From a virus: a stretch of DNA of 43,102 bases. Numbering within the stretch: position 1 is the first letter of the stretch; every line of letters begins with the position of its first letter. The stretch is taken from positions 1 to 43,102 of IMG/VR virus record IMGVR_UViG_3300017991_000178, one strand, 5' to 3'. The position numbers and the translations under genes are program-made. Of this stretch, positions 7,021 to 42,524 are shown one piece after another. Under the pieces are notes generated by a model that worked only from the letters and a program-made list of their open reading frames with translations, ran no database searches and was not told where the DNA came from.

Positions 7021-7301
7021 AGCAGGAGATCATCTGCTTGTCGTGCGCGGCCGACTCGCTGAAGCGCTACAAGGCTCTGGGCGAGGGCGAGTCCGTGGAA
7101 CCCTGGCCAGGTGAGTTCGTGCAGCACGTTCCCGGCAAGGCGCTCGACGACTACCGCTGCGACTACTGCGGCGACGACATCAAGTCGGGAGCGGAGTGCT
7201 GCGCGCGAGGCAACTACCTGCGCGGCGGGAACATCGACGGCTGGTGGGTGGACTTCATCCGCGTGAACCACGCACCGCACCTGTACAGGCTGAAGCGATG
7301 A
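7017..7301 (+). CDS. Zinc-ribbon protein
   Basis: 94 residues with CLSC near the N-terminus, then CDYC and CC (residues ~45-62), enough for one or two zinc sites. The C-terminus is WVDFIRVNHAPHLYRLKR; the NHAPHL here resembles the N-terminal NNAPHL leader found on several other proteins in this window, and may be chance. Coupled by ATGA overlaps on both sides. Confidence 0.65.
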   Translation: MKQEIICLSCAADSLKRYKALGEGESVEPWPGEFVQHVPGKALDDYRCDYCGDDIKSGAECCARGNYLRGGNIDGWWVDFIRVNHAPHLYRLKR

Positions 7302-7675
7302 AGGACAACGCTCCGCACCTTCAGGGCCTCCCGGTTCGGGAGCGCATCATCAAGACCGAGACGCGCGCCTGGGAGCGCCTACGTCGCGTCAGCGAGCGCG
7401 ACCGGGCCAGCGGTCGGGTGAAGCCTGCCTCGGCCAACTTCGGCGCGCTGGTGCGCAGCATGGGGCAAGCGGCGGTGCTCGCGACGAAAGGGATGAGCGC
7501 GGCGCTGAAGGTGGAGGTGGCGATGGCGAAGTTCCGGGCCGAGTGCGCTGCGCTCGGACAAGACGAGGACCGCGCGGTCGAGGAGGCGAAGCGCCTCACG
7601 CAGCACACCGCGCTGGACGCGCTGCAGGCTTTCGACGAGGTCCTGCAGCGGATACGCAAGCTGGGACCGTTCTGA
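7298..7675 (+). CDS. Helical protein with NAPHL leader
   Basis: 125 residues, almost wholly alpha-helical and rich in Ala, Arg and Glu (a long run from ~20 to 120). It begins MKDNAPHLQGL, the same short leader seen at 10409, 10702, 11058 and 15430 on otherwise unrelated proteins. No cysteines or membrane segments. Function unknown. Start is fixed by the ATGA overlap with the upstream gene. Confidence 0.65.
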   Translation: MKDNAPHLQGLPVRERIIKTETRAWERLRRVSERDRASGRVKPASANFGALVRSMGQAAVLATKGMSAALKVEVAMAKFRAECAALGQDEDRAVEEAKRLTQHTALDALQAFDEVLQRIRKLGPF

Positions 7676-9469: not shown

Positions 9470-9499
9470 TTGACACAGGCGGTGCAGCGGCGATACACT
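9470..9499 (+). promoter_or_regulatory. Sigma70-like promoter placed directly before a start codon
   Basis: TTGACA at 9470-9475, an 18-base spacer and TACACT at 9494-9499 (4 of 6 to TATAAT). Transcription should begin near 9505-9506, and the next ATG is at 9506, so the message would have almost no leader. The 212-base gap 9294-9505 holds nothing else I can support. This is the likely head of the long operon that follows. Confidence 0.55.
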
Positions 9500-9505
9500 T
9501 AGAGC

Positions 9506-9988
9506 ATGGACATCCGCGTCGGACAGATCTGGCGCAGCCTACCTGCGGAGCGACGCGGGCTCCGCAAGTACGTGATCGTCGAGGCAATTACGGAGGAGCG
9601 CATCACCATCCGCTTCTGCGGACGGGACGGTGCGCCCCGCGTCCTCTGGCCCCACGTCCTCCCGAAGCGTTACCGGCTGGTCATCGACCCTCCCCCCTGC
9701 CCGTTCTGCGGGGAGAGGCCGACCATCCGGCAGATGTGGGCGGCGGGCGTCTTCGAGGTCTGGTGCCACGGGCTGCCCATCGTGCGCGGCAACGGCTACC
9801 AGGCCGAGGCGATGGCCATGTGGCGTTCTTGGTGCGAGGAGTTCGAGCCCTTGCAGCGTCGCGTGGCATCGTGCCGGAAGGAGAAGAACGATGCGGATGG
9901 ACCTGATGCTGAACGGGGAGCGACTACTCAGCCTCTTCCTGCAGCGCAGCGACGACGGTTGGACGCATCATCTGCGAGCCAACAGTGA
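9506..9988 (+). CDS. SH3-like/zinc protein related to Lar restriction-alleviation proteins
   Basis: 160 residues. Residues ~1-60 form a beta-rich unit (RVGQIWRSLP...KYVIVEAI) like a KOW/SH3 module. Residues ~68-115 match the Lar-type zinc finger: PCPFCGERPTIR, VWCHG, then EAMAMWRSW, where the family usually ends in a WN/WR motif. Lar proteins blunt type I restriction. The last ~35 residues are low-complexity and overlap the next gene by 98 bases in another frame. No Shine-Dalgarno is visible, consistent with leaderless initiation. Confidence 0.6.
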   Translation: MDIRVGQIWRSLPAERRGLRKYVIVEAITEERITIRFCGRDGAPRVLWPHVLPKRYRLVIDPPPCPFCGERPTIRQMWAAGVFEVWCHGLPIVRGNGYQAEAMAMWRSWCEEFEPLQRRVASCRKEKNDADGPDAERGATTQPLPAAQRRRLDASSASQQ

Positions 9989-10408: not shown

Positions 10409-10705
10409 ATGCATGACCGCGCCCCGCACCTTCGCGGCCTTGTCGGCCGCACGGAGGCCGCAGCCTGCATCGTGCAGGAGTTCATCGAAAGTGGCCTGCT
10501 CCGCTTCACGGTCAACGGCGAGCGGCTGAAGGCGAAGGACGTCGAGGTCCGCGAGGACCCGCTGTCGATGCACTTCGACCTGATCGTCAACGGCCAGGTG
10601 CTCGCCACCATCAGCGACGACGACCTGCTCCGCATCAGCCACGGCCCGGGGAAGAAGCGCGACCGCATCGAGACAGCCACCTTCCGCATCGAGAGGTCCC
10701 GGTGA
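10409..10705 (+). CDS. Hypothetical protein with APHL leader
   Basis: 98 residues. It begins MHDRAPHLRGL, one of the recurring APHL leaders of this phage, followed by a beta-rich body (RFTVNGERLKAKDVEV, HFDLIVNGQVLATIS). No cysteines. Function unknown. The stop overlaps the GTG start of the next gene. Confidence 0.65.
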   Translation: MHDRAPHLRGLVGRTEAAACIVQEFIESGLLRFTVNGERLKAKDVEVREDPLSMHFDLIVNGQVLATISDDDLLRISHGPGKKRDRIETATFRIERSR

Positions 10706-11061
10706 CCAACAACGCGCCACACATGAGCCGGCTGCTGAACCGGGCTCGGATGATCGCCTTCACCGCAGCGGTCGAGGAGCTGGAGCGCCAAGACCGCGAG
10801 CGCATCGCGCGAGAGCAAGAACGGCAACGCTGGCTCTACCAACGCCAGCGCGAAGCGGAGCAAGCACGAGAACGCATCGCCGAGTTAATGAACGACTCAC
10901 GCCAGGCAGAAATCCAGGAGAACGCCAAGGACCACTTCAGAGCGTTCGTTTCGGAACGGACAAAAGGCAAACGACGGCGAGGCGGAAAGAAGAGCAGGCG
11001 ACGACCGTACACCATCCCCGGAACCGGGGTGACCGTCCTGACCCGGAGGCGTGTGCCGTGA
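10702..11061 (+). CDS. Basic coiled-coil protein with NNAPHM leader
   Basis: 119 residues from a GTG in a GTGA overlap. After the leader (TNNAPHMSRLL) comes a long charged helix with heptad character (residues ~20-85, Glu/Arg/Gln-rich) and a very basic end (KGKRRRGGKKSRRR). It probably binds nucleic acid or another protein by coiled coil. The first 21 bases are identical to those of the next gene's start, which points to duplication of the leader. Confidence 0.65.
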   Translation: MTNNAPHMSRLLNRARMIAFTAAVEELERQDRERIAREQERQRWLYQRQREAEQARERIAELMNDSRQAEIQENAKDHFRAFVSERTKGKRRRGGKKSRRRPYTIPGTGVTVLTRRRVP

Positions 11062-11480
11062 CCAACAACGCGCCACACCTTCAGTACATCGGGGCACACC
11101 TGGTCTGGTTCGACGGGGAGCCCGTCCTTCTGGCCGAGCCTCCGCAGGTCGTCATCAACGAGAGCGCGCGGTCGGTGAGCATCGGCAACGTCCCGCTGGG
11201 CTGCACCGTGAAGAGCAAGGCGAAGATCCCAGCGCCCCCGGGCATGGAGCGCGCGCCGATGACCCGGGACACCATCGCGGAGGTGAACAAGGCGCTGCGC
11301 GAACAGCCACCGTTCCTCCATGCCTTCTGCCGCTGCGTGCTCGAGCCCGTTGCGTGCTCGGAGTGCGGCGGGCGCGGAGAGGTGGTCTGGACCAACCCGG
11401 ACCCCGAGGCCGAGTACGACCCGTGGGACACCGAGGAGTGCCCACGATGCAACGGAACAGGAAAGGAGCCAACATGCTGA
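11058..11480 (+). CDS. NNAPHL-leader protein with DnaJ-like zinc motifs
   Basis: 140 residues from GTG 11058. Leader TNNAPHLQYI is nearly identical at the DNA level to that of the previous gene. A mainly beta body follows, and the C-terminus carries CSECGGRG and CPRCNGTG, the CxxCxGxG repeats of DnaJ-type zinc domains (two of the usual four), plus an upstream FCRC. It may act in protein or nucleic-acid binding. The next gene's Shine-Dalgarno lies in its last codons. Confidence 0.7.
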   Translation: MTNNAPHLQYIGAHLVWFDGEPVLLAEPPQVVINESARSVSIGNVPLGCTVKSKAKIPAPPGMERAPMTRDTIAEVNKALREQPPFLHAFCRCVLEPVACSECGGRGEVVWTNPDPEAEYDPWDTEECPRCNGTGKEPTC

Positions 11481-11863
11481 CGACGGTAGACACGATGGAG
11501 GCCCTGGCGCGGATGAACCAGGGCGAGCGCGAGGAGCGGTCCTTCAGCGACGTGGTGGTGCTCAAGGGCTACCGCTTCGAGGTGGATTCGGCCGGCAAGC
11601 CGAAGTCCCTCCAGACATTGGAGATCAACGTGAGCGAGTACCTCGCCCCTGGGACAGCGATGGTCCCACCGCTCCCGCACGCGCTGGAGCTGAAGACCAA
11701 GGCCGGCGACACCTTCGCGGTGGTCTTCCCGACCTCGATGCGGCTGTGGCCAGGCGAGGCTGCTGGCGAGATCGGACGGCTGCAGGTGGTGGCGCACCGC
11801 ATCTTCGACGGACCCATCCGCTTCACGATGGAGGGGCAGGCCTGGAGCCCGAGCGCGTCATGA
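11474..11863 (+). CDS. Hypothetical protein
   Basis: 129 residues with GAAAGGAG before the ATG at 11474. A helical N-terminus (MEALARMNQGEREE) is followed by beta strands; no cysteines or membrane segments. Not recognised. It sits at the head of the zinc-finger array and is coupled to it by an ATGA overlap. Confidence 0.6.
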   Translation: MLTTVDTMEALARMNQGEREERSFSDVVVLKGYRFEVDSAGKPKSLQTLEINVSEYLAPGTAMVPPLPHALELKTKAGDTFAVVFPTSMRLWPGEAAGEIGRLQVVAHRIFDGPIRFTMEGQAWSPSAS

Positions 11864-12054
11864 AGGAGCGCGCCTACCACCTGCACCTGCTCGACCCGAC
11901 TCGATGCCCGAGCTGCCACGGCTGGCCTCACGAGAAGCTGCGGCCGTGCATCATCCACGGTGTTGCGGTCTGCAACCAGTGCCACAACGAGGCGCTCTGC
12001 GTGAAGCTCGACGAGGCAGGCAGGCGTGACGAGGAGGCGAAGCGGTGCGCGTGA
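11860..12054 (+). CDS. Array member 1: small zinc-finger protein
   Basis: 64 residues. Leader KERAYHLHLLDP, then CPSC, and a CNQC about 27 residues on: one zinc ribbon. It is the first of a run of similarly built miniproteins. ATGA overlap with the upstream gene; GTGA overlap with the next. Confidence 0.7.
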   Translation: MKERAYHLHLLDPTRCPSCHGWPHEKLRPCIIHGVAVCNQCHNEALCVKLDEAGRRDEEAKRCA

Positions 12055-12275
12055 CCGGGCAGCACATGAAGCTGATGAGCCGGCTGGGCTGCGTCCGCTG
12101 TCGCGTTGGGCTCGATGGGGAGCGCGACTCCTACCAGAGCCGCTACGGCAAGGAGTTCGTGGTCTGCCGCATCTGCCACAACGACGAGTGCCACGAGGCG
12201 ACGGACGACCTCGATGATGAACACCGAGAGCGCTACGTGAAGCCAGGGACGCAGATCGGATGGGTGCAGCTGTGA
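12051..12275 (+). CDS. Array member 2: small zinc-finger protein
   Basis: 74 residues from GTG 12051, chosen because it overlaps the upstream stop (GTGA), the rule for this array; GTG 12045 is an alternative. Leader QHMKLMSRLG is followed directly by CVRC, with CRIC about 27 residues on and an acidic C-terminal half. One zinc site expected. No known family; the resemblance is to its array neighbours. Confidence 0.7.
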   Translation: MTGQHMKLMSRLGCVRCRVGLDGERDSYQSRYGKEFVVCRICHNDECHEATDDLDDEHRERYVKPGTQIGWVQL

Positions 12276-12469
12276 CCGTTGCGCCGAACACCTGGAGGCA
12301 GCTGCGGCTGATGGGCGGACGCATCTGCAACGGCTGCGGCGTGCTCATCCCGGCGCGGCGACCGCACAACGCCCACGGGGCAACGCTCAGCCGGACCTAC
12401 TACTGCCGGCCCTGCGTGCGAGCGAACAACGCGGAGGCCATCCGCAAGCACGGGAAGCTGCCGTTCTGA
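12272..12469 (+). CDS. Array member 3: small zinc-finger protein
   Basis: 65 residues from GTG 12272 (GTGA overlap); an ATG at 12260 in the same frame would add four residues. Leader WRQLRLMGGR, then CNGCG, and CRPC about 28 residues later, with a Lys/Arg-rich end. Same plan as the other members. Confidence 0.7.
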   Translation: MTVAPNTWRQLRLMGGRICNGCGVLIPARRPHNAHGATLSRTYYCRPCVRANNAEAIRKHGKLPF

Positions 12470-12792
12470 TGGTGCGCGACCTGATGACGCAGCGACGGAT
12501 GGAGCTGCTCGGCTGTCTCCCATGCCTCGGCCTTTGCGGGATCTGGGTGCAGCTCGGCCCGCAGCTGCCCATCGACTTCGGCGACCGCATCCAGGTTGAC
12601 GGGCTCGTTCGGATACCGTTCCGAGCGATAGGCAACGGCGTGCTCTGCGAGCGCTGCGCGCGAAACGAAGACAGGATGGCCGATGCGTCGAAGCGCTGGA
12701 GGAGCGCGGAGCACACCATCCGCACCGCGCAGAGGCCAGGCGAGGACTGGCGCGCGTACATCAAGCGGATCATGCACGAGGAGCCGATATGA
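12469..12792 (+). CDS. Array member 4: extended zinc-finger protein
   Basis: 107 residues, longer than most members. Leader TQRRMELLG, then CLPCLGLCG, a ~40-residue insert with beta strands, CERC, and a helical tail (KRWRSAEHTIRTA). One-base overlap with the previous stop (TGATG). Confidence 0.65.
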   Translation: MVRDLMTQRRMELLGCLPCLGLCGIWVQLGPQLPIDFGDRIQVDGLVRIPFRAIGNGVLCERCARNEDRMADASKRWRSAEHTIRTAQRPGEDWRAYIKRIMHEEPI

Positions 12793-13013
12793 GGAGGCCG
12801 AGGCAAACGCGCGTTCACCTGAAGCGGCTGGGCATGATCCAGTGCGTGGACTGCGGGCTGCTCTACAGCGCGTGGTACAGGGCGACGCTGCCTGCCATCG
12901 AGACGGCGAAGCTCGGGCAGACCGTTGGCCTCGCTCCGAGCGCCTACCCACCGAGGTGCGACCGCTGCCAGAAGGAGTTCAAGGAGCGGAAGCAGGGGGA
13001 GCTGGAGCTGTGA
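12789..13013 (+). CDS. Array member 5: small zinc-finger protein
   Basis: 74 residues. Leader VHLKRLGMIQ runs straight into CVDCG, and CDRC appears ~40 residues on. This is the clearest match to the array consensus HLxRLGxxxCxxCG. ATGA overlap upstream, GTGA overlap downstream. Confidence 0.75.
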   Translation: MRRPRQTRVHLKRLGMIQCVDCGLLYSAWYRATLPAIETAKLGQTVGLAPSAYPPRCDRCQKEFKERKQGELEL

Positions 13014-13246
13014 AGTACACCCTCGGCACCTACGAGCGGATGCAGAAGCTGGGCACGGTGCTTTGCACCTGCTGCGGCACGGAGCGCGTGGCCTTCGACC
13101 CGGAGCCAGGCCTGGTGGTGGTGAGCAAGCTCTGCCCGATCTGCGACTGCTACTCGAAGTCGAGCAAGCGGCCGACCGTGCCAGGTCCTCGCGGGCGAGA
13201 GACGGTGTTCGAGTTCGAGCCAGAGGAGTTCTTCGGTGAAGGTTGA
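13010..13246 (+). CDS. Array member 6: small zinc-finger protein
   Basis: 78 residues from GTG 13010. Leader GTYERMQKLG, then LCTCCG and CPIC (with CDC next to it), ending in an acidic FEFEPEEFF tail. Same leader spacing as other members. Confidence 0.7.
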   Translation: MKYTLGTYERMQKLGTVLCTCCGTERVAFDPEPGLVVVSKLCPICDCYSKSSKRPTVPGPRGRETVFEFEPEEFFGEG

Positions 13247-13532
13247 CGCTGAAACCCAGAAGCGGCTTCTGGAATTGAGCCCGACGTTCTGCAAGGCGGC
13301 TCTGCGCGAGGAGCCCCGCGGGCCAGCCTTCTGCCCGCTGGCTCCGTGCGCGGACTGCGACCTCGGGCTGAAGGTCCAGCACATCAAGACCTTCGAGGAG
13401 TTCGTGTCGGTGTTCGGCGACGTCAACAGCGCGGACGACCTCGCGACCCAGGCAGCGATGGAGTTCTTTTCGAAGGGCGAGGCCCCGGTGATCAACATGC
13501 CCCGGTCGGCCTTCAAGAGGGTGAAGCGATGA
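13236..13532 (+). CDS. Cysteine-containing helical protein within the array
   Basis: 98 residues from GTG 13236. Cysteines at TFCKAAL, AFCPLAPCADC; the rest is helical (EEFVSVFGDVN..., LATQAAMEFF). It lacks the HLxRLG leader and so is an interloper rather than a clear array member. Overlaps neighbours by 11 and 4 bases. Confidence 0.65.
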   Translation: MKVDAETQKRLLELSPTFCKAALREEPRGPAFCPLAPCADCDLGLKVQHIKTFEEFVSVFGDVNSADDLATQAAMEFFSKGEAPVINMPRSAFKRVKR

Positions 13533-13759
13533 TTCTGAACGTCGGCGAGCACCTGGACCTGCTGGGCACCTGCCGCTGTTGCCGCTGCGGGCTCTGGCGC
13601 GCGACGGCGCACGACATCCCCTGTGTGCCCTGCCAGAAGCGGAGGGGGGCGTTGTACCAGCGGAGGCGGGAAGAGCGCACAGGCGGGCGGACGTTGGCCG
13701 ACGAGCTACAGACGCCCGACCTACTACGGGTGCTGGACAGGGCAGGGTACAAGCGATGA
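13529..13759 (+). CDS. Array member 7: small zinc-finger protein
   Basis: 76 residues. Leader GEHLDLLGT followed by CRCCRCG and CVPC about 15 residues on. The C-terminal half is Arg-rich helix. Spacing between the cysteine pairs is the shortest in the array. Confidence 0.7.
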   Translation: MILNVGEHLDLLGTCRCCRCGLWRATAHDIPCVPCQKRRGALYQRRREERTGGRTLADELQTPDLLRVLDRAGYKR

Positions 13760-14079
13760 AGAAAAGCAGGCTGACCCCCACGAGGCTGAACCGGCTCGGG
13801 CTACGCTGGTGTCCGCGATGCGACACCTGGCAGGAGGCGCGGCGAGCCACCGGCCGGCCGTTCGGCTGCTTCAACGACCTGGACGCGGACTACTGCGGCG
13901 CGTGCGAGACGGAGATTGCGAAGGAGGAGCACCTGCGGAGGCGGAAGGAGTTCGACACCAACCAGGCGACGGACGGATGCGATGGGAGCGAGCTGGCATG
14001 GGGAGCGCTCTCCGACGGAGCGCGCCAGGACCAGCGGCTGGTGGTGGCCTTCGACGGGACGCTGAAGAGGGACCGATGA
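13756..14079 (+). CDS. Array member 8: extended zinc-finger protein
   Basis: 107 residues. Leader PTRLNRLGLRW then CPRC, later CGAC, with a third lone cysteine and a long acidic/basic tail. Larger than most members, with about 50 residues added after the second pair. Confidence 0.65.
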   Translation: MKKSRLTPTRLNRLGLRWCPRCDTWQEARRATGRPFGCFNDLDADYCGACETEIAKEEHLRRRKEFDTNQATDGCDGSELAWGALSDGARQDQRLVVAFDGTLKRDR

Positions 14080-14273
14080 CCGTGCCGAGCCGGACCTACG
14101 AGCACCTGCTGGCGATGGGCTGGCGACCCTGCCTTGCCTGCGGCAGCGACCATCCGACCCGCGTGGCCTGCGTCAAGGCGGAGATCGCCCACATCGTGAT
14201 CGACCCGAACGACGACCTCTGCTGGCGGTGCGCGGAGGAAGAGCAGCAACGGCGCGACGGTGTGATGCAATGA
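14076..14273 (+). CDS. Array member 9: small zinc-finger protein
   Basis: 65 residues. Leader TYEHLLAMGWRP then CLACG and CWRC ~29 residues later; an extra cysteine lies between. It ends in a charged helix. Coupled at both ends by ATGA. Confidence 0.7.
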   Translation: MTVPSRTYEHLLAMGWRPCLACGSDHPTRVACVKAEIAHIVIDPNDDLCWRCAEEEQQRRDGVMQ

Positions 14274-14314
14274 AGCTCGACCGCAACCACCTGAACATAA
14301 AGAGGAAAGCATGA
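14270..14314 (+). CDS. 14-residue peptide or decayed array member
   Basis: A minute ORF, MKLDRNHLNIKRKA, with a 4-base ATGA overlap at both its start and its stop. It keeps the leader-like NHL but has no cysteines. Either a short peptide that carries ribosomes across the gap (coupling), or the stub of a lost zinc-finger gene. Its last codons also contain the Shine-Dalgarno (AGAGGAAAGC) of the next gene. Confidence 0.4.
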   Translation: MKLDRNHLNIKRKA

Positions 14315-14556
14315 GCACAGCAGGATACATTGAGAGGGAGCCGAACCCGGCCCACGAGCCGCGGAAGGGCGATCAGTACATCAGCCGTTCGTTTGGCGTG
14401 ACCATTACGGTGGTGGCGGTGGGGAACAAGGGCGGCAGGCGCTGGGTGGTGTGGGCTCCGGTGACGGGCGTGAAGTACAAGACCGAGTACGAGAAGTTCA
14501 AGAACGAGTCGCGGCGAGTGTTGAAACGGAAACCAGCGAAGGGCCGACGACGGTGA
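14311..14556 (+). CDS. Hypothetical basic protein within the array
   Basis: 81 residues, preceded by AGAGGAAAG. Beta-rich middle (TITVVAVGNKGGRRWVVWAP) and a strongly basic end (RRVLKRKPAKGRRR). No cysteines and no array leader. The middle resembles SH3-like folds; nucleic-acid binding is plausible. Confidence 0.65.
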   Translation: MSTAGYIEREPNPAHEPRKGDQYISRSFGVTITVVAVGNKGGRRWVVWAPVTGVKYKTEYEKFKNESRRVLKRKPAKGRRR

Positions 14557-14744
14557 AGCTGAACACTTCAGACCACTTCGAGCACCTGGCTGTCGGGCTT
14601 GCGCGGTGTCTTGACTGCGGCAGGGTTGTTCGCTTCGACGTCCCGCGACAGCGGAGCGACTACCGTTGTCCGGCCTGCCGCCGTCGAGCCCCTCGGCCGA
14701 AGGGAACGGCGCGCGTGGTTTCGGAAAGGGTGGAGCCCCGGTGA
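14553..14744 (+). CDS. Array member 10: small zinc-finger protein
   Basis: 63 residues from GTG 14553. Leader SDHFEHLAVGLAR then CLDCG, and CPAC ~19 residues on. Arg/Pro-rich end. Same architecture as neighbours. Confidence 0.7.
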   Translation: MKLNTSDHFEHLAVGLARCLDCGRVVRFDVPRQRSDYRCPACRRRAPRPKGTARVVSERVEPR

Positions 14745-14947
14745 TCAAGGGCAGGGCCATCAAGCACCTGTTCCGGCTCGGCCGGCTGGTGTGCTCGAGC
14801 TGTGGCACAACGCTGGCCACAGGCGGCGCGGTGTTGGAGCGGCAGGCACGGCTGGACGAGCCCGACCTCTGCCGCGGCTGCTGGCTGGCGCAGCACGGAC
14901 TGGACCCGGGCAACACCACGGTCTCCCGTCGAAGGAGGGGAGGATGA
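14741..14947 (+). CDS. Array member 11: small zinc-finger protein
   Basis: 68 residues from GTG 14741. Leader AIKHLFRLGRLV runs into CSSCG, with CRGC ~25 residues later and a basic end. Close fit to the array consensus. Confidence 0.75.
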   Translation: MIKGRAIKHLFRLGRLVCSSCGTTLATGGAVLERQARLDEPDLCRGCWLAQHGLDPGNTTVSRRRRGG

Positions 14948-15138
14948 AGATCAGGGAAGCGATGGAGAGCCACCTGCACCGGCTCGGCGAGCTGCGCTGC
15001 GCTGGCTGCGGGAAGGTCATCGCCAAGGTCCCGATGGACACCTACGAGATGGAGACCTGGCTCTGCGACGGCTGCGCCGGCATCGTGGGCTACGCTCCGG
15101 TGACCGAGGCGATGCGGAAACGATGGAGGAACCGATGA
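14944..15138 (+). CDS. Array member 12: small zinc-finger protein
   Basis: 64 residues. Leader ESHLHRLGELR followed by CAGCG, then CDGC ~24 residues on. GGAGG at 14938-14942 lies just upstream of the ATG. Best match in the array to HLxRLGxxxCxxCG. Confidence 0.75.
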   Translation: MKIREAMESHLHRLGELRCAGCGKVIAKVPMDTYEMETWLCDGCAGIVGYAPVTEAMRKRWRNR

Positions 15139-15302
15139 AACCGACACCAGCGACCACGCCTCCCTGCGTGGAGTGCGGTGAGCCCGTGGAAGACGAGCGG
15201 GTCATCTACGCGCGCCCCACCTGCTTCGCCTGCCTTCCGCCCCCCGAGCCCCTGCCGGAAACCCGTCCCATTCAATCGGACAGGTTTCGGAGGACCCGAT
15301 GA
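15135..15302 (+). CDS. Array member 13: zinc-finger miniprotein lacking the leader
   Basis: 55 residues. CVECG and CFAC 18-20 residues apart in the usual position, but the HLxRLG leader is replaced by a Pro/Thr-rich start (PTPATTPP). The end is Pro- then Arg-rich. Coupled by ATGA at both ends. Confidence 0.65.
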   Translation: MKPTPATTPPCVECGEPVEDERVIYARPTCFACLPPPEPLPETRPIQSDRFRRTR

Positions 15303-15433
15303 AGCTGGGTCGAGCGTGGCTGCACCTGAACCTGCTGGGCCGAACGAGCTGCGCCGGCTGCCTGGTGCTGGAGCGCGTCCAGAACAACCGCGTCTGCATC
15401 GCCTGCTGGCGAGCGAGAGGAAGGACCCGATGA
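15299..15433 (+). CDS. Array member 14: smallest zinc-finger miniprotein
   Basis: 44 residues. Leader AWLHLNLLGRTS, then CAGC and CIAC 15 residues later, with an Arg-rich end. Its ATG overlaps the upstream TGA and its TGA overlaps the next ATG, which strongly supports it as a real gene despite its size. Confidence 0.65.
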   Translation: MKLGRAWLHLNLLGRTSCAGCLVLERVQNNRVCIACWRARGRTR

Positions 15434-15852
15434 ACCACCGAGCGCCGCACATCGAGGGGCTCACCGACGAGCGCGTCTTCTTGCCGGGCGAGATCCACCT
15501 GAACCCCGAGCAGATGGACATCGAGACCCGGATGGCCAACCGCAGCTGGATGATGCACCAGGGCAGAGCGGTTGCCGCGCCCACCACCCGAGAGCGGACC
15601 AGCATCACCTTCCGCGTCCGCAACCTGCCCTCGCTCTACCTTCGCCAGCTCCTCGGTGTCATCGAAGCCTGCCGACGCCTCCCAAGGAACCGCGACACCC
15701 CGACCATCATCCTTCAGACGCCAACACACCAACTACGCTTGAACCGCTATCACCCAAGAGAGCACACCATCGACCAGACCTCCGAAGGGGACGTAACCAT
15801 CAAGATAACCCTCGACGTTGACAACTACGATCTGGTGCGAGACAAAGGTTAG
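15430..15852 (+). CDS. Hypothetical protein with RAPHI leader, last gene of the coupled operon
   Basis: 140 residues. Leader NHRAPHIEGL matches the APHL group (7298, 10409, 10702, 11058). The body has helices (LYLRQLLGVIEACRRL) and closing strands (DVTIKITLDVDNYDLV). No zinc motif. It ends the chain that began near 9.5 kb and carries a possible promoter for the next gene in its last codons. Confidence 0.65.
   Translation: MNHRAPHIEGLTDERVFLPGEIHLNPEQMDIETRMANRSWMMHQGRAVAAPTTRERTSITFRVRNLPSLYLRQLLGVIEACRRLPRNRDTPTIILQTPTHQLRLNRYHPREHTIDQTSEGDVTIKITLDVDNYDLVRDKG
15818..15846 (+). promoter_or_regulatory. Possible promoter for the HTH protein gene
   Basis: TTGACA (15818-15823), 17-base spacer, GACAAA (15841-15846). 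The -35 is perfect but the -10 keeps only half its consensus. It would start transcription about 25 bases before the ATG at 15877, which has a good AAGGAGCG site. Confidence 0.35.
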
Positions 15853-23880: not shown

Positions 23881-24184
23881 CGTCGAGGTACGACAGCTTT
23901 TGTCGCACGTCGGTGGTACGCTCGCCGACCTGCTCGGCCTCGCGCCTCCGGGCGAAGGCCCCACCGAAGTTGAGGTGGACTTCTCCCCGGTGAAGTTCGT
24001 GCCGATGCTGCTGCAGGCCGTGGGGCGCATCTACCAAGAGGTCGCACCGACCGAGTGGCGACACGACAAGGTGCCACTGCGCATCTTCTTCTTCGGACCA
24101 CTCATCATCAAGTTGAGCCGGCCCGTCCCTCCCGGCGCTGAAAACAAAATCAACCAGGGCGAAAAAGAGGTGGATGCAAAATGA
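23867..24184 (+). CDS. Hypothetical protein
   Basis: 105 residues from GTG 23867. Helical N-terminus (DVEVRQLLSHVGGTLADLLG), then a hydrophobic strand (LRIFFFGPLIIKL). Not recognised. The stop overlaps the next ATG (ATGA). Confidence 0.55.
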   Translation: MSKRDVEVRQLLSHVGGTLADLLGLAPPGEGPTEVEVDFSPVKFVPMLLQAVGRIYQEVAPTEWRHDKVPLRIFFFGPLIIKLSRPVPPGAENKINQGEKEVDAK

Positions 24185-24507
24185 AAAACAACGCGTGCCA
24201 TCTTGCGCTGCTTCATCACTTCACGGGCAACGGCGGCGAGCTGTTTGTCGGCGTTCGGGCGAACGGGAGGCGCTCGGTGATGATGATGCACACCCCGATG
24301 CACATGTTGGACGACGATGTCAACGAGGCGAAGTCCATCGCGGCCGGCTTCTTTACCAACTGCGGTTGGCAGATCCGCTTCTACGTGGACAACGAAGAGG
24401 AGTTCATCGCGGGCTCCATGCAGGAGTTCGTGGACAACATCGACGCCTGGCATCTCGGCTGGATGGCCGACATGACCAGGGACCTACGCAAGGGGGCCAC
24501 ACCATGA
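24181..24507 (+). CDS. Hypothetical protein with NNACHL leader
   Basis: 108 residues. It begins MKNNACHLALL, close to the NNAPHL leader of 10702 and 11058 though outside that operon. A Met-rich middle (RSVMMMHTPMHMLDDD) follows. No zinc motif. Function unknown. Confidence 0.6.
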   Translation: MKNNACHLALLHHFTGNGGELFVGVRANGRRSVMMMHTPMHMLDDDVNEAKSIAAGFFTNCGWQIRFYVDNEEEFIAGSMQEFVDNIDAWHLGWMADMTRDLRKGATP

Positions 24508-25398: not shown

Positions 25399-25582
25399 AA
25401 CGGTCTTCGCCGGACGGCTGATCACCGACAGTGGTCGAGCCATCACGGTCTTGGAAGACAGACCCTACGACCTGCTTTGCCAGCTGGAGCGCAAGGCGCG
25501 GGCGCTCGACGCCGAGGGCGAGGGCTTCCGCATCGTGACCTGGAAGTACAACCAGATGGTCGAGGTCGAGGAGGACGCATGA
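25382..25582 (+). CDS. Hypothetical small protein
   Basis: 66 residues, with GGAGG just before the ATG at 25382. A mixed strand-helix fold (VFAGRLITDSGRAITVLEDR). No motif. Its stop overlaps the recombinase start. Confidence 0.55.
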   Translation: MKTERRTVFAGRLITDSGRAITVLEDRPYDLLCQLERKARALDAEGEGFRIVTWKYNQMVEVEEDA

Positions 25583-26271
25583 GGGTGATCGGCTACGCGC
25601 GGGTTTCGACAGCGGAGCAAGCGGAGAGCGGTGTGAGCCTTGACGCGCAGCGCGAGAGGCTGCGGATGTACTGCGACCTCTATCAGCACGAGCTGCTCGA
25701 TGTCATCGCCGATGCCGCGAGCGGCAAGTCGCTGGAGCGCGACGGCATTCAGCAGGTGTTTCGGATGCTCCGGTGCGGTGAGGCGGAGGGGGTCGTGGTG
25801 TTGAAGCTCGACCGGCTGACGCGCAGCCTCCGCGACCTGCAGTCGCTTCTCGAGGAGTTCTTCGCGGCGAACGCCGAGACCCCGCGGCAGCTGATGTCGG
25901 TCAACGAACACCTGGACACGTCCACGGCAAACGGGCGGATGATGACCAACCTGCTGATGGTCATCGCGCAATGGGAGCGCGAGACAATTGGCGAGCGCAC
26001 CAAGGAGGCGCTTGCCTACAAGAAGGCGAAGGGCGAGCGATGCGGCAGCATTCCCTACGGCTGGGAGCTTGCCGACGACGGCATCAACCTCGTCACGAAC
26101 ATCGCCGAGCAGAAGGCTATCCAGCTGGCGCGCGAACTACGGGACCAAGGGCTCTCGCTTCGCGCCATCGGCAAGAAGCTCTGGAAGCTCGGCTACGCGC
26201 AGCGCAACGGCGCGAAGTGGAAACCGCAGACCGTGAAGAGCCTGCTGGCTGCGGAGGAAGGCACGGCATGA
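25579..26271 (+). CDS. Serine recombinase (resolvase/invertase family)
   Basis: 230 residues. Resolvase catalytic domain with RVIGYARVSTAEQ, where Ser10 is the nucleophile, and KLDRLTRSLRDLQ, which carries the conserved Arg residues. Then a long helix E, and a C-terminal helix-turn-helix-type segment (LSLRAIGKKLWKLGYAQRNG) ending in VKSLL. It is short compared with large serine integrases (over 450 residues), so it may be a resolvase/invertase rather than the phage integrase. GGAGGACGC precedes the ATG. Confidence 0.85.
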   Translation: MRVIGYARVSTAEQAESGVSLDAQRERLRMYCDLYQHELLDVIADAASGKSLERDGIQQVFRMLRCGEAEGVVVLKLDRLTRSLRDLQSLLEEFFAANAETPRQLMSVNEHLDTSTANGRMMTNLLMVIAQWERETIGERTKEALAYKKAKGERCGSIPYGWELADDGINLVTNIAEQKAIQLARELRDQGLSLRAIGKKLWKLGYAQRNGAKWKPQTVKSLLAAEEGTA

Positions 26272-31058: not shown

Positions 31059-31519
31059 TGCCGGACGGCATGGGTGGCGCTGGAATCGGCGCTGGCGGTG
31101 GCGCGGCTGCCGCAGCAATCGTCTACGCTCTGGACCGCATCTTCGGTTCGGGCAAAGCTGTCAAGAACCTCGACGACCGCTTCAAGGAGCTGCGCGAGGC
31201 GCTGGAGAAGGACATCGACTCCTTGCGCACCCTCGCGGAGCGCGCGACGGCGTTCGCCGAGAAGCTCCACGACTGGCACAACGTGGCGGACCCAGACGAC
31301 CCCTCGGGGAAGCTCTGGTACTTCTCCGTCTCGCTGCGCCGGCACATCGACTCTCTCCAAGCGAAGGTGTCCAAGCTGCTCGAGCTGCTCGACCAACTCG
31401 TGCGGCGGTTCGACAAATACAACAACACGATGGAGAAGCTCATCACGGTCGTGGAGCAGCTACAGAAGGACGTCAATGCTCTCGGCCTGATGGTGAGCGG
31501 GATAAACAGGAGGCCCTGA
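31058..31519 (+). CDS. Membrane-anchored coiled-coil protein
   Basis: 153 residues. An N-terminal Gly/Ala-rich segment (GGAGIGAGGGAAAAAIVYAL) suits a membrane insertion. A long coiled coil of charged heptads follows (~35-150: FKELREALEKDIDSLR..., RHIDSLQAKVSKLLELLDQL..., MEKLITVVEQLQKDV). Function unknown; a holin-like or lysis-timing role is one possibility. Confidence 0.6.
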   Translation: MPDGMGGAGIGAGGGAAAAAIVYALDRIFGSGKAVKNLDDRFKELREALEKDIDSLRTLAERATAFAEKLHDWHNVADPDDPSGKLWYFSVSLRRHIDSLQAKVSKLLELLDQLVRRFDKYNNTMEKLITVVEQLQKDVNALGLMVSGINRRP

Positions 31520-31779
31520 TGGCTGATGAGGGGAAGGGCGCTGACCCGGGGCAGATCACGGTGTCTCGCTACGACAAGAAAGAGCTGAAGGCGGAGATGG
31601 CGGAGCGCGCAAAGGCAGCTCAGAAGACACCCGGTCTCCCGTGCGGCTGCGAAGAGTGCGTTGACTGCGGCGAGTGCAAAGCGGACCTGGCGAAGGCGCG
31701 GCTGCGCCGGCAGAACACCTTGGTTACGCGGTTGAACTCCCGTGTGCTCGCGCTGCTCGAGCAGGCCACGGCAACGTAA
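31519..31779 (+). CDS. Cysteine-rich small protein
   Basis: 86 residues. A charged start, then GLPCGCEECVDCGECK, six cysteines close together that could hold one or two zinc ions. Basic helical end. AGGAGGCCCTG precedes the ATG. Not recognised. Confidence 0.6.
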   Translation: MADEGKGADPGQITVSRYDKKELKAEMAERAKAAQKTPGLPCGCEECVDCGECKADLAKARLRRQNTLVTRLNSRVLALLEQATAT

Positions 31780-31781
31780 AA

Positions 31782-31886
31782 ATGTCTTGCAGCGAAGGGC
31801 TGCTTCAGGGGCTGGCGGTCATCGTCGTCAGCGTTGGGGTGGCCTGGCTTATCGCCGAGCTGGTGAAGACCCTCGGCGGTCGATGA
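31782..31886 (+). CDS. Small single-span membrane protein
   Basis: 34 residues. One span (GLAVIVVSVGVAWLIAELV) and short charged flanks. It fits exactly between its neighbours. Weak ribosome binding site, but the clear span and tight placement support it. Confidence 0.5.
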   Translation: MSCSEGLLQGLAVIVVSVGVAWLIAELVKTLGGR

Positions 31887-31896
31887 GAGGTGAGAA

Positions 31897-33726
31897 ATGA
31901 ACGACCGCGCGATGGCCCCCGAGGTAGACATCGAGCGCGCAGCCGCTGACGGAGCAAACGTCACGGTTCACGTGTTCAAGCACGGCGGGAAGGTTAGCAA
32001 GAGCGGCCCATCCATCCCTGCTGGAAAGTCCGAGGACGACGAGGGCAAGTCGGTGTGGTCTGGCACCGAAACCGTCGAGCCGCTCTACCCACCAGACTCG
32101 CTGCTCTTCCTCTACAACGTCAGCGACACCCTGCGGCAGTGCGTCGATGCGATGTCGACGAACATCGACTCGCACGGGCACATGTTCGAGCCGACCATCG
32201 ACTTCGCAGCGGAGGACATCAAGGAGCAGATCGTTGCTGCGCTGATGAGCGACGGCGGCACCAAGGAGCCCGACGAGGAGACCATCGACCGCACCATCAA
32301 GGAGTGGAAGCGCGAGGCCCGCATCGAGCGCATCCGGCTCAAGAGCTACTTCGAGGGCGTTTGCTTCGAGTACTCGTTCATCGACCTTCGGCGCGCGACC
32401 ACCACCGACAAAGAGACCGTTGGCTGGGGTGCGTGGGAGATCATCCGCGACAAGAAGAACGGCACCCCTGTGCGGTTCAAGCACGTCCCTTCACACTCGC
32501 TGCGGCTCTCCAAGGCCAGAACGCCCGTCGAGGTCGAAGAGCACCTTCCGGCCGGCGTGCTCAAAACCCGGACCGTGAGCGTGACCAGAAAGCTGCGGCT
32601 CGTGGTCCAGCTCGATGAAAGCGGCTCTGGGTTCACCTACTTCAAGACCTTCGGCGACCCGCGGCTCATCGGAACGGACGGCGAGGACTACACCGCGCCG
32701 GACGGTGGCGAGGCGAAGCAGATGCCCGAGGGCGTCGAGCCCGCGACCGAGATCTTGATGTTCCAGACCTACTTCCCTGGGACCCCCTACGGAGTGGTGC
32801 GCTGGCACGGCATGATCCCGCAGATCCAAGGCACGCGAGAGGCGCAAGAAAACACGCTCGACTACCTGGAGAACAGCGCCATCCCGCGCGGCATGTTGCT
32901 CGTGGCCGATGGCCGGATGGGCAGCGACTCGGTCACGAAGCTGGAGAACTTCTTCAAGACCCTGAAGGGCGAGGCCGAAAACCGGATGGTGGTCGTCGAG
33001 GCAGAAACCCCTCGCGACAAAGCGCTGGAGCAAAGCGGGCGCGTTCAGATCCAGTGGGTGTCGTTCCGAAACGAGCAGCGCGAAGACGCAACCTTCGCTG
33101 CATACATTGCGTCGAACGCACACGGCGTCGGCAGCACCTTCCGCATCCCTCCCATCCTGCGCGGCGACACCAAGGACTTCAACCGCGCCACGGCGGTCGC
33201 GGCGCTTGAGTATGCCGAGGAGCAGGTGTTCACCCCCGAGCGCGAAGCGTTTGACTGGGTCATGAACCGCAAGATCCTGCCGCTGCTCGACGTCCGCTTT
33301 TGGAAGTATCGCTCCAGGGCACCGCGCAAGAGCGACCCGGAGGCGATGGCGAAGATCGCCGAGAGCTTCTTGAAGCACGCCGTGGTGGTCCCGTCCGAGA
33401 TGCGCCCCCTCGCGGAGCGCGTGCTCGGCGTGGACCTGCCGAACGACGCAGCCGACTTCCAGCGGCTCCCCCTGCAGGCCTGGCTGGCTGGCTTCCAGCC
33501 GCCCCCTGTGCGGTCGGCAGGAGGCGATGGGCCGATGACCCCACCCCAGGCTGCTCCGCCCGACGTGGGGCAACAGGGCGGCGACACGGGGGAGAACGAG
33601 CCCACCCCCGATGACGAAGAGGCGCTGGCCCGGAAGATCCTGACCCTGAAGGCCAGGCTGGAGCGGGTCCGGGCGGCGCGGGAAGCGGCGCGGACCCTGG
33701 CTGCCGTGAGCGGTGACGACGACTGA
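31897..33726 (+). CDS. Portal protein
   Basis: 609 residues, GAGAGGTGAG before the ATG. Matches PBSX/Mu-type portals: an N-terminal region with PPDSLLFLYNVSDTLRQC, a mid-section PGTPYGVVRWHGMIPQIQG and LDYLENSAIPRGMLL, and IASNAHGVGSTFRIPPILRG, seen in this portal group. A Pro-rich linker then a helical end (EALARKILTLKARLERVRAAREAARTL). It forms the 12-subunit ring that receives DNA from the terminase. Its stop overlaps the next ATG. Confidence 0.85.
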   Translation: MNDRAMAPEVDIERAAADGANVTVHVFKHGGKVSKSGPSIPAGKSEDDEGKSVWSGTETVEPLYPPDSLLFLYNVSDTLRQCVDAMSTNIDSHGHMFEPTIDFAAEDIKEQIVAALMSDGGTKEPDEETIDRTIKEWKREARIERIRLKSYFEGVCFEYSFIDLRRATTTDKETVGWGAWEIIRDKKNGTPVRFKHVPSHSLRLSKARTPVEVEEHLPAGVLKTRTVSVTRKLRLVVQLDESGSGFTYFKTFGDPRLIGTDGEDYTAPDGGEAKQMPEGVEPATEILMFQTYFPGTPYGVVRWHGMIPQIQGTREAQENTLDYLENSAIPRGMLLVADGRMGSDSVTKLENFFKTLKGEAENRMVVVEAETPRDKALEQSGRVQIQWVSFRNEQREDATFAAYIASNAHGVGSTFRIPPILRGDTKDFNRATAVAALEYAEEQVFTPEREAFDWVMNRKILPLLDVRFWKYRSRAPRKSDPEAMAKIAESFLKHAVVVPSEMRPLAERVLGVDLPNDAADFQRLPLQAWLAGFQPPPVRSAGGDGPMTPPQAAPPDVGQQGGDTGENEPTPDDEEALARKILTLKARLERVRAAREAARTLAAVSGDDD

Positions 33727-36503
33727 TGTGCTACCTGTGCGAACACGTCGCCCCCCTTGAGATCCCGGCCCAGGGGCTCTACCTCTCCGATGCCGGCCGG
33801 CTGACCTTCATGGGCAACGACGCTGTTCGCGTGGCGGCGATGCTACCGAACGCCATCCCGGCGCGCGGCTACGTCGCCATCCACAAGACTCGCAACGGTG
33901 TGTGGAGAGCGCGACGCCTGGATGCCTTGACGCTCGCCGATGCGAAGCGCACCGCGCTGGAGATGGGGCGGCACTCGGTCACCCCCGTGGTTCTCGGCGA
34001 GGTCGCCAAGATGGGCGGCGACCCGTTCAGCCCGGTGTTCATGATCTCAGCGGTGTCCCTGTTCGAGCCCGTGACAAAAGGCGACCTGCTTCGCAAGGCC
34101 ATCGAGGCAGCGGACGACATCACCGACAACCTCAAGCTGCTGCGCGTCGAGAAGGCGAGCAAGAAAGACCCGTTCAGCAAGGTCGGGTTCGACACCTACG
34201 CAGCGAACCTGGTGAAGGCGCTGGAACAAAACCTCGGCACGCTTCCACAGGACGCCATCAACAGCGTCATCAGCGGCAGCGGCATCAACTTCGCGGCAGC
34301 AAGCGAAGAGCAGATCAAGCAGTTCGCCAACAAGATGAACGCGGCGATGCGCGGCGCGCTGGGAACCAAGGAGTGGACCTCGGTGCAGAACAGCTTCGAG
34401 GTCCATCACAACCGTGTTCGGAAAGGCACCGTCGAGAAGGTCGTCGACAAGTACAACCTCGGCGTCTCGACCGGGCTGGACCTGAAGGACAAGCGCGCCA
34501 TCGCTCGTTCAGCGTCGGCGCGGACGACCTTCGTGCGCGACTTCTACAACGGCCAAATCTGCCCGAAGACATCAGACCGCGCGAAGCGCATCGTGCGTGA
34601 AGGGATGGAGCAAGGCTACGGCAGCCGAGAAATCGGCCGCGAGATGCGGCGCGAGCTTGGGCGCTACGTCCAGGAGCAGAACCGCGACTACTTCAACGTC
34701 GTCGCCGATGCGGCTGTGGCGCGGGCGCGCGAGCACACCGCGATGACAAAGTATGCCGAGGCCGGCGTCTCGGTGGTGTTGCTGTCCTCGGTGCTCGATG
34801 AGGCGACCACCGAAACCTGCCGCTGGCTGGACGGCAAGGTGCTCGAGGTCGAGCACTGCATGCAGAAGTACAACCAGATGGACGAGGCGAACCCGGAGGA
34901 GGTCAAGTGGCGTCTTCCGTGGATGCGCGAGAAGACGCTGACCGATGGTCCGAACGCTGGCAAGCGGGCGATCTTCATGGCGCGCGAGAAGGGCTGGCGG
35001 CAGGTCGCGGTGGTTCACAAGCCAGCCATCGGGACCCAGGGCACCGGGAGCTACAAGGGTTATGGCATGCCTCAGATGCAGAAGCTCGGGCTCGGCCCTC
35101 CTCCGTACCACGGGCACTGCCGGACAACGACCGTCCCAGACGTGTCGTACCATCCGGTCGTACAGCAGGAGCTTCCTGGCATGAGAAACCCGCGCGTTCC
35201 AGATCAGCGCAAGCAGCCGAAGCAGATGCCGCGCCCACGGAAGAAGATCGTCGGCCCCCAGGCGATGCTCGACGAAAAGTTGATGGGGACACACGGTGGC
35301 CAGGCGCTCCCGCTGGATGCCGAGGACATCGAGAACCAGGTGGTGCGCTTCCGCAAGGAGCGGGACAAGCAGGGCGAGTACTACGTGGTGTCGTTCCGCG
35401 TTCCGGCTGCGCGCGGCGTGCAGATGCGCAGCGATATGAAAAGGCAAGGAGCGAAGCAGAAGTCCCACGCGTTCAAGAAAGCGAAGCCAGGCGACACCAA
35501 GAAGCCCATCCAGCGGACCGGGGAATACTCGTCCATCGGGACCACCGTTCTGGAGCAGAAGTCCGGCAAGAGCATCGTGCGGCTTCACTCCGACAGCGGC
35601 CAGTTCGCGATGGAGAACCGCGTCGAGATCAAGGTCCGCACCGGGGACCCGAAGGCCGCGTTCGCTGAGTACCAGCGGGTCATGCAGGACCTGAAGGTCA
35701 AGGACGCCACTGCGTTCCCAAGCCCGCAGGCGGCGCGCGCTGCGATGCAGGCGCGGCTCATTACGCAATGGGACAAGAACGCAGCGCAGACCCTCTCTGG
35801 GATGCGCAAGATCGACCCGGCCGAGATCGACAAGCTCTACGAGCAGGCTTCGAAGCGCAACCCCGGGATGCGCAAGGCGCTGAAGGACATGGAGAAGCGC
35901 GAGGTCTTCCCTGGGCACCAGGCGTTCTACTCTGAGGCGCAGGCGAAGGAGGCGCAGAAGGGCGGCGTGAAGTTCCTCTACCACGAGGCGACCGACCCCG
36001 CTGCTGTTGGTCACGTCTTCGGTGGCGACGGTCTGATGTCCTCGGTCAACCGCTTCGACCGAGGGGTTTTCACCACCGGCATGAGCACCAGCTCTGACTT
36101 CAGGACTGGTGGTGCGAGCGGCGTTTTCGTGCGCGCCAGCGCTCAGGCGAACCCTGGCGGCAAGCGCGGCTTCTACAACTACGGTCCCGTCCGGTTCATC
36201 ATCGACCCGAAGCAGCTCGGTCGCACGGACTGGTGGGCATACAACTCAGACAGCTTCGGGCAGACCGGGCGGCAGTCTCTCGGTGGGCGTTCCTACGTGA
36301 AAGACGTCGGCGGTCCGAAGCAATACAACGGTCGCTCGAACGAGATCATGTTCGAGCAGGGCATCCCGAAGGAGGCCATCAAAGGCGTCTACGTCCGAGG
36401 GACGACAACGCGCAGGAAGGTCCTTGCCGACCTCAAGGCGCGCGGCATCAAGGAGATCAATGGCACCCCCATCGAGAAGTTCGTCAAGCTCGGCGGCGAC
36501 TAG
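33726..36503 (+). CDS. Head morphogenesis protein (SPP1 gp7/Mu F-like) with ADP-ribosyltransferase-like C-terminus
   Basis: 925 residues, about twice the usual length. Residues ~330-470 hold the minor head protein core: HTAMTKYAEAGVSVVLLSSV, LDEATTETCRWLDGKV (from ~357) and GPPPYHGHCRTTTVPDV (from ~457). A basic, Pro-rich linker and a further domain follow. From ~750, the sequence has FLYHEATDPAAV (His753), MSTSSDFR (~786-793) and NEIMFEQG (872-879), spaced like the H...ST-S...E layout of ADP-ribosyltransferase-like domains, sometimes joined to minor head proteins. Minor head proteins can be injected with DNA. Head assignment is firm, the transferase part is inference. Confidence 0.75.
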   Translation: MCYLCEHVAPLEIPAQGLYLSDAGRLTFMGNDAVRVAAMLPNAIPARGYVAIHKTRNGVWRARRLDALTLADAKRTALEMGRHSVTPVVLGEVAKMGGDPFSPVFMISAVSLFEPVTKGDLLRKAIEAADDITDNLKLLRVEKASKKDPFSKVGFDTYAANLVKALEQNLGTLPQDAINSVISGSGINFAAASEEQIKQFANKMNAAMRGALGTKEWTSVQNSFEVHHNRVRKGTVEKVVDKYNLGVSTGLDLKDKRAIARSASARTTFVRDFYNGQICPKTSDRAKRIVREGMEQGYGSREIGREMRRELGRYVQEQNRDYFNVVADAAVARAREHTAMTKYAEAGVSVVLLSSVLDEATTETCRWLDGKVLEVEHCMQKYNQMDEANPEEVKWRLPWMREKTLTDGPNAGKRAIFMAREKGWRQVAVVHKPAIGTQGTGSYKGYGMPQMQKLGLGPPPYHGHCRTTTVPDVSYHPVVQQELPGMRNPRVPDQRKQPKQMPRPRKKIVGPQAMLDEKLMGTHGGQALPLDAEDIENQVVRFRKERDKQGEYYVVSFRVPAARGVQMRSDMKRQGAKQKSHAFKKAKPGDTKKPIQRTGEYSSIGTTVLEQKSGKSIVRLHSDSGQFAMENRVEIKVRTGDPKAAFAEYQRVMQDLKVKDATAFPSPQAARAAMQARLITQWDKNAAQTLSGMRKIDPAEIDKLYEQASKRNPGMRKALKDMEKREVFPGHQAFYSEAQAKEAQKGGVKFLYHEATDPAAVGHVFGGDGLMSSVNRFDRGVFTTGMSTSSDFRTGGASGVFVRASAQANPGGKRGFYNYGPVRFIIDPKQLGRTDWWAYNSDSFGQTGRQSLGGRSYVKDVGGPKQYNGRSNEIMFEQGIPKEAIKGVYVRGTTTRRKVLADLKARGIKEINGTPIEKFVKLGGD

Positions 36504-36525
36504 CTTTGACTTCGCCACCCACAAG

Positions 36526-36849
36526 GTGTGCGTGTTGCTGACCGACGGCATCGGTCCGTACCTCATGGTGCGGCCGACGCGCAAGATGGTGGACGGCGTG
36601 GATAGCATCGTGTTCGACACCGGCGAGCGCATCATGGTTCGCGAGGTGGAGCGCGTGCTGAAAGAGGACCTCGACGAGCTGGAGTTCAAAGACCACGGGC
36701 GGACGCACCGCGTCATCCCGCTGACCATGAAGACCTACAAGCGGCACATCGAGTCGGTGCTCATGGATAAGCCCGACGAGAAGTTCAGGAGCGACGAGGA
36801 GCTGGTGGACTACGTTCTGGCGGCGTCGCCACAGGAGGTACTGTTATGA
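36526..36849 (+). CDS. Hypothetical head-region protein, start uncertain
   Basis: About 107 residues from GTG 36526; GTG 36532 or an ATG at 36564 are alternatives, none with a good ribosome binding site. The same frame is open back into the end of the head gene. Strands (YLMVRPTRKMVDG, SIVFDTGERIMVREV) then helices. Not recognised. The stop overlaps the next ATG. Confidence 0.5.
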   Translation: MCVLLTDGIGPYLMVRPTRKMVDGVDSIVFDTGERIMVREVERVLKEDLDELEFKDHGRTHRVIPLTMKTYKRHIESVLMDKPDEKFRSDEELVDYVLAASPQEVLL

Positions 36850-37163
36850 GCGATATGATTCAGACCCTGCGAAAGGGAGGCGTCGGCGTGCGCGACCTGG
36901 CCAACCTCACGATGGGCATCGAGAAGGCTGTCGTGCTCTCCATCCAGAACAGGCCGCAGCGCGAGGGCGGCGTCACCGAACACGAGATGAAGCGGCGCGC
37001 GAAGTGGTGCGTCGACACTGCGCTGATGCTGATGAGGGACTACCAGTGGTCCTCCGAGCGCGTCTGCGATACCTTGCCCGAAGCGCTGGTGACGTACCTC
37101 GACACCGGCGACTTCATCCCGAGCCCGCATCGCAGCTGGGTTCAGAGGGGAGTAGAAGCATGA
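36846..37163 (+). CDS. Hypothetical helical protein
   Basis: 105 residues with CAGGAGG before the ATG. Helical (IQTLRKGGVGVRDLANLTMG; KRRAKWCVDTALMLMRDYQW). Not recognised. Coupled to the methyltransferase-ligase-protease fusion by ATGA. Confidence 0.55.
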   Translation: MSDMIQTLRKGGVGVRDLANLTMGIEKAVVLSIQNRPQREGGVTEHEMKRRAKWCVDTALMLMRDYQWSSERVCDTLPEALVTYLDTGDFIPSPHRSWVQRGVEA

Positions 37164-41076: not shown

Positions 41077-41083
41077 TCGAAGA
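41066..41083. repeat. Perfect 18-base palindrome across the scaffold stop codon
   Basis: TCTTCGACTAGTCGAAGA, centred on the TAG stop at 41074-41076. It can form a 7- or 8-base stem in the RNA, between scaffold and capsid coding. There is no T run, so it may slow decay or tune translation rather than end transcription. Confidence 0.65.
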
Positions 41084-41129
41084 GGGCGAAGAAACCATCT
41101 TCGACGAACACTAGAGGAGGCGAAGAGAA

Positions 41130-42086: not shown

Positions 42087-42163
42087 TAGGCGGCGTGCGG
42101 AGCGGAGCGGTTTTGAGCAACTGACAGCTGGCGCGTTGCTGCGCCGGCATGAAGGAGAAGATC

Positions 42164-42484
42164 ATGGCTCTCACTTACGGAACCACCCCGGACGTGAAGT
42201 CGGCGCGCGTGAAGCAGGCCAACTTCCTCATCCAGCAGTCCATCGACCTGGACGACAGCTACCCGAGCGGCGGCTACGCGCTGACCGATCTGGCGGCGTC
42301 TCTCGGCGACAACGTCTACACCATTCTGCACGTGGATGTGCAGCCCGTGGCCGGCTACCTGTTCAGCTACGACCGAGCGAACGACAAGCTCATCGTGCTG
42401 GACGCAGCCACCGGCGCGGAGATCGCTGGGGCCACGGACCTGCAGGCCGTGACCGGACTGGTCGCAACCATCTGGGCCGAGTAG
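42164..42484 (+). CDS. Head decoration-like protein
   Basis: 106 residues from ATG 42164 with AAGGAG 6 bases upstream (ATG 42149 lacks one). Beta-rich (NVYTILHVDVQPVAGYLFSY, DKLIVLDAATGAEI), resembling the small decoration or head-fibre proteins next to HK97-type capsids. The 42087-42163 gap holds only its ribosome binding site. Confidence 0.65.
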   Translation: MALTYGTTPDVKSARVKQANFLIQQSIDLDDSYPSGGYALTDLAASLGDNVYTILHVDVQPVAGYLFSYDRANDKLIVLDAATGAEIAGATDLQAVTGLVATIWAE

Positions 42485-42524
42485 AACAGACGGGCCTCAT
42501 GTTGCCCGAGTTAGAGGTAAAAAG

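Follow-up and report, generated by a model that had tools for sequence, protein, structure and literature searches.

The analysed window is a virus record of 43,102 bp with a GC content of ~65%. It contains, away from its structural genes, a region of small ORFs in which one set had been described in the initial annotation as an array of about 14 miniature zinc proteins sharing an N-terminal leader. All 14 ORFs are present on the + strand with the annotated positions and sizes of 44-107 residues, and nearly all genes in the string are joined by 4-nt start-stop overlaps of the ATGA or GTGA type, the overlap at 12469 being 1 nt (Table 1; genes are named by their start positions). These overlaps run along the + strand, therefore coupled translation from one mRNA is likely, and a single message would likely carry the whole string. 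A candidate promoter lies upstream; three sigma70-like sites were found, against 0.6 expected when the region is shuffled. The first gene past the promoter-like site (9506-9988) matches Lar, a restriction alleviation protein, below threshold (E 0.0028).

Table 1 Features of the small-gene string and of the structural region.
Position	Strand	Feature
9470..9499	+	candidate sigma70-like promoter match TTGACA-18-TACACT, upstream of gene string
10409..11480	+	three consecutive non-family genes (10409, 10702, 11058), leader M-x-x-[NR]-A-P-H-[LM]-x-x-[LI]
11474..11863	+	non-zinc gene directly upstream, N-terminus MLTTVDTMEALARMN, weakly leader-like
11860..12054	+	zinc microprotein, 64 aa, leader HLHLLD
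12051..12275	+	zinc microprotein, 74 aa, leader HMKLMS
12272..12469	+	zinc microprotein, 65 aa, leader QLRLMG, weak endonuclease VII profile match
12469..12792	+	zinc microprotein, 107 aa, leader RMELLG, borderline member
12789..13013	+	zinc microprotein, 74 aa, leader TRVHLKRLG
13010..13246	+	zinc microprotein, 78 aa, leader TYERMQKLG
13236..13532	+	degenerate member, 98 aa, leader TQKRLLELS kept, first CxxC lost
13529..13759	+	zinc microprotein, 76 aa, leader HLDLLG
13756..14079	+	zinc microprotein, 107 aa, leader TPTRLNRLG
14076..14273	+	zinc microprotein, 65 aa, leader TYEHLLAMG
14270..14314	+	14-codon ORF MKLDRNHLNIKRKA*, probable leader-only remnant of lost member
14311..14556	+	unrelated basic 81-aa protein within string
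14553..14744	+	zinc microprotein, 63 aa, leader TSDHFEHLA
14741..14947	+	zinc microprotein, 68 aa, leader HLFRLG
14944..15138	+	zinc microprotein, 64 aa, leader HLHRLG
15135..15302	+	leaderless CxxC/CxxC protein, non-member, weak DksA/TraR finger match
15299..15433	+	smallest member, 44 aa, leader HLNLLG
15430..15852	+	non-zinc gene, leader MNHRAPHIEGL, ends coupled string
27013		terminase large subunit
31897		portal
41130		capsid-type protein

The phage belongs to an isolated lineage. The contig IMGVR_UViG_3300018080_000278 is 100% identical across window positions 31130-43102 and extends ~30.8 kb past the right end, and a related terminase is encoded on only two short contigs, at 74% and 45% identity. 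Beyond these three contigs, searches with the terminase, the capsid and neighbouring genes returned nothing, and a search of bacterial and archaeal genome contigs for a related terminase yielded no host genome relative.

Elsewhere in the window, a single ORF of 978 aa (37004-39940) is an unusual fusion: its residues 72-292 match families of DNA methyltransferases, its residues 845-970 those of head maturation proteases. Other genes encode a phage ADP-ribosylglycohydrolase (18527-19414; phrog_6572, E 1.3e-64) and a serine recombinase with a Resolvase and a partial Recombinase domain (25579-26271), from which a temperate lifestyle is possible.

Membership and conserved positions

To assess membership, each ORF was scored in a leave-one-out HMM analysis and ranked against ~2,200 start-codon ORFs from both strands. 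Twelve of the 13 leader-bearing ORFs came first or near-first, and ten scored above every non-member ORF. ORFs 12051 and 13010 were each equalled or outscored by a single leaderless CxxC ORF, and six non-members ranked above 12469. The fourteenth ORF, 15135, was outscored by 78 non-members and scored under its own cysteine-preserving shuffles; its cysteines are present, without a leader or a profile match. Failing both the held-out profile and the shuffle test, it was rejected as a family member. The array as annotated thus holds for 13 of its 14 ORFs and has to be corrected for 15135. Further leaderless small CxxC proteins or domains occur in the phage at 1798, 19543, 22222, 24504, 26409 and 29284.

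With the cysteines kept fixed, the 13 members were mutually closer than shuffles (mean Z 1.6 over 78 pairs), and the best pairs were 12272-14076 (Z 6.4), 14741-15299 (5.4) and 12789-14076 (5.1). Judged from these comparisons, the family is real but highly divergent, and common ancestry is established at the sequence level for most of the 13 members. Membership is less certain for 11860, 12469 and 14553, and the weak members 12469 and 11860 might be convergent CxxC proteins.

The family plan consists of an N-terminal T-x-x-[H/R/Q]-[L/M]-x-x-[L/M]-G followed by CxxC, 11-36 variable residues and a second CxxC; the linker between the knuckles had been given as 15-45 residues in the initial annotation. 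Invariant among the aligned columns are the start Met and the four cysteines only. In leader-anchored columns, conservation was high at T-3 (z 5.6), H/R/Q0 (10.9), L/M1 (7.6), L/M4 (8.2) and G5 (7.0), and near the second knuckle only the cysteine columns rose above z 3. Apart from the cysteines, conservation is confined to the leader residues, and the tails differ among members in length and charge; the strong divergence that had been noticed outside this frame is borne out. The leader core lies 4-9 residues past the Met and stands exactly three residues ahead of the first Cys in 10 of the 13 members. It runs into CxxC in all 13, as described, and into CxxCG in just nine. The proposal of a single family, its leader conserved and its second half variable, is supported.

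Two copies absent from the initial annotation appear degenerate. ORF 13236 keeps its leader, AETQKRLLELS, followed by three residues and then a Cys, the first CxxC being gone; its leader score tops that of every gene outside the 13. The 14-codon ORF MKLDRNHLNIKRKA at 14270-14314 has ATGA overlaps at both ends and resembles the start of 15299 (MKLGRAWLHLNLLG). Its HMM score alone is not significant, the match being too short for significance, and it is probably the leader remnant of a lost member. Both fit a scenario of gene birth and decay within the array, and repeated duplication with fast divergence, as first proposed from the sequence, is the best explanation of the family.

Predicted fold and relatives

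AlphaFold2 models computed with the family alignment reached pLDDT values of 69 (14944) and 74 (14076) and pTM values of 0.46-0.53. In both, an N-terminal helix leads into a short hairpin built around the first CxxC, and a further helix begins at the second CxxC; in 14076, these elements span residues 5-13 (helix), 16-18/25-27 (hairpin) and 50-60 (helix). These modest-confidence models of two members suggest a treble-clef-like fold. Foldseek gave no significant match against the PDB and none against viral models, where the top hits included PhnA ribbon, HNH and endonuclease VII proteins.

Sequence searches of Pfam, PHROGs, NCBIfam, PADLOC and the PDB returned sub-threshold zinc-motif matches only. 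The members may, as first proposed, face many different host targets in defence or transcription; in the databases searched, none was tied to anti-defence or RNA polymerase. A PADLOC-DB search with four members and six other genes found no defence-component match. Queries with four members, the consensus and the lookalike L066 (see below) gave nothing significant by tblastn against 50,697 phage genomes. Scanning 2.9 million viral contigs for exact motif forms, an approach that could miss more diverged arrays, brought up neither a homologous family nor a second array. The strict HLxRLGxxxCxxC pattern produced 40 hits, none a convincing family member; ATGA-anchored and T-anchored patterns gave 16 and 14 hits, mostly out-of-frame or single-knuckle, and a pattern for the A-P-H leader of the non-zinc genes gave two chance-like hits. 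The only convincing lookalike among the anchored hits is L066 (IMGVR_UViG_3300009788_000184), from an unrelated phage, with MKDRYTTPEHLELLGIHVCPDCG...CYGC and 27.9 bits against the family profile. It was found by a pattern built from the family motif and, unlike the array, is a single-copy protein of 129 aa in a 34% GC context; it may be convergent. Another hit, L068, is a Ref-like nuclease.

No described tandem family sharing an N-terminal helix was found in the literature, and the earlier view that no phage family of this build has been described stands for the databases and literature searched. The tailed archaeal haloviruses of the HF1 group carry 12-14 CxxC proteins of less than 100 aa, mostly of unknown function and outside the structural region (PMC7230728). 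They resemble the window phage in having many small CxxC proteins away from structural genes, but these are described as numerous and not as a single tandem family that shares an N-terminal helix (PMC7230728). No sequence link between the array and these proteins was found here. NinD and NinF of the lambda nin region are likewise tiny CxxC/CxxC proteins and lie in a phage operon whose genes overlap tightly, without the paralogous expansion seen in the array. As candidate ancestors, they scored no better than their own shuffles against the family profile (NinF, PF05810: 0.9 versus a null mean of 1.1).

A rival reading derives the array from an HNH/endonuclease VII treble-clef nuclease, its members being regulatory or catalytically dead fragments of that enzyme. 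Nucleases of this group (PF02945; PF06147, DUF968) have the arrangement modelled for the family, a hairpin at one CxxC and a helix that begins at the other. The match of 12272 to endonuclease VII phrog_1035 (E 8.7e-4, and 4.7e-5 in a one-genome search) is weak and restricted to this member. HNH, endonuclease or endonuclease VII proteins account for four of the first 11 Foldseek hits among viral models (TMq 0.41-0.55), but the Foldseek E-values are 0.26 or worse. The Ref/DUF968-like HNH nuclease L068 of another phage starts with KEHLNLIGSMPCIVCG, resembling the family's own start in its E-H-L-x-x-I-G-x-x-x-C-x-x-C-G arrangement. The window phage itself encodes DUF968 and HNH_3 genes; its own HNH proteins, however, do not score with the family profile, and the profile scores give no support to these genes as ancestors. 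Moreover, the family members are far smaller than such nucleases, Pfam Endonuclease_7 (PF02945) finds no match in the window, and the linkers share no His/Asp motif, none of the catalytic Asp/His/Asn of an HNH motif being conserved. A nuclease descent thus appears unlikely, and the affinity of the family to the endonuclease VII/HNH fold is weak.

The leader beyond the zinc proteins and a proposed role

Five other genes (7298, 10409, 10702, 11058 and 15430) begin with M-x-x-[NR]-A-P-H-[LMI]-x-x-[LI], and four of the five lie inside the string. The A-P-H leaders share the H-L-x-x-L spacing of the zinc family; homology is not proven. The gene outside the string spans 7298-7675, and a similar start, ACHLALL, occurs at 24181-24507; the bodies of all six proteins otherwise differ. 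Genes 10702-11061 and 11058-11480 are identical in their first 21 nt. The weakly leader-like gene at 11474 gave no score with the family HMM.

Conceivably, the conserved helix serves as a modular docking tag at the N-terminus of many operon proteins, zinc or not, and addresses one common partner of the phage or the host. Besides the cysteines, the leader alone is conserved, and 13236 has lost a knuckle yet keeps it. The neighbours 10409, 10702, 11058 and 15430 bear H-[LMI]-x-x-[LI] at Met+6, making four of nine operon ORFs outside the 13 in comparison to five among 90 other genes (p 0.003 in a post hoc Fisher test chosen after the data were seen). However, the motif is short; in the A-P-H type the T cap is missing and so, usually, is the G; and in most of the zinc family the helix sits exactly three residues before the knuckle, as expected of a structural element of the domain. 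We regard a docking tag as rather improbable. Its furthest extension, in which the H-L-x-x-L(-G) helix would be an operon-wide address tag directing ~18-20 phage proteins with different bodies, for the most part fast-evolving zinc domains, to one common hub of host or phage, with each body acting on a different client, is speculative and has a small chance of being right.

That the array is a set of unrelated small CxxC proteins, alike merely through CxxC motifs and composition, is very unlikely: column identity across the aligned ORFs averages just 22-23% and other leaderless CxxC proteins of the phage, 15135 among them, score near the weakest members, but the leave-one-out and cysteine-preserving tests and the leader conservation reject it for most members, so that it is largely refuted for about ten of them, 11860, 12469 and 14553 excepted.

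We slightly favour the reading that the array comprises lineage-specific, single-domain zinc microproteins with a treble-clef-like fold, duplicated in an early-type operon and serving as binding adaptors against host machinery. Each member would start with a two-turn helix, with T as N-cap, an H/L/L face and G as C-cap, followed by a zinc hairpin at the first CxxC and a second helix opened by the other CxxC, i.e., a minimal treble-clef-like fold. The helix would be either a common docking surface or part of the core of the fold. We infer that the members bind zinc and are expressed from a single mRNA. Repeated duplication inside the coupled operon would have built the family, with copies diverging fast in loop and tail and some of them, such as 13236 and 14270, decaying. 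Early in infection, the products would act on host machinery as small adaptors that bind protein or nucleic acid. The searches yielded no relative from which a conserved function could be read; a host-directed adaptor or regulatory role is probable by analogy, because small treble-clef/CxxC microproteins behave in this way and because the location is early-type.

Fast-diverging phage microprotein arrays of this kind would represent natural libraries of binders. A fixed helix combined with a variable zinc body, in 13 copies per operon, would show how a phage diversifies its host-interaction proteins, and the array would supply a ready set of small, stable modules for screening. Should the helix prove to be a shared docking tag, it would point to a single hub addressed by many phage proteins.
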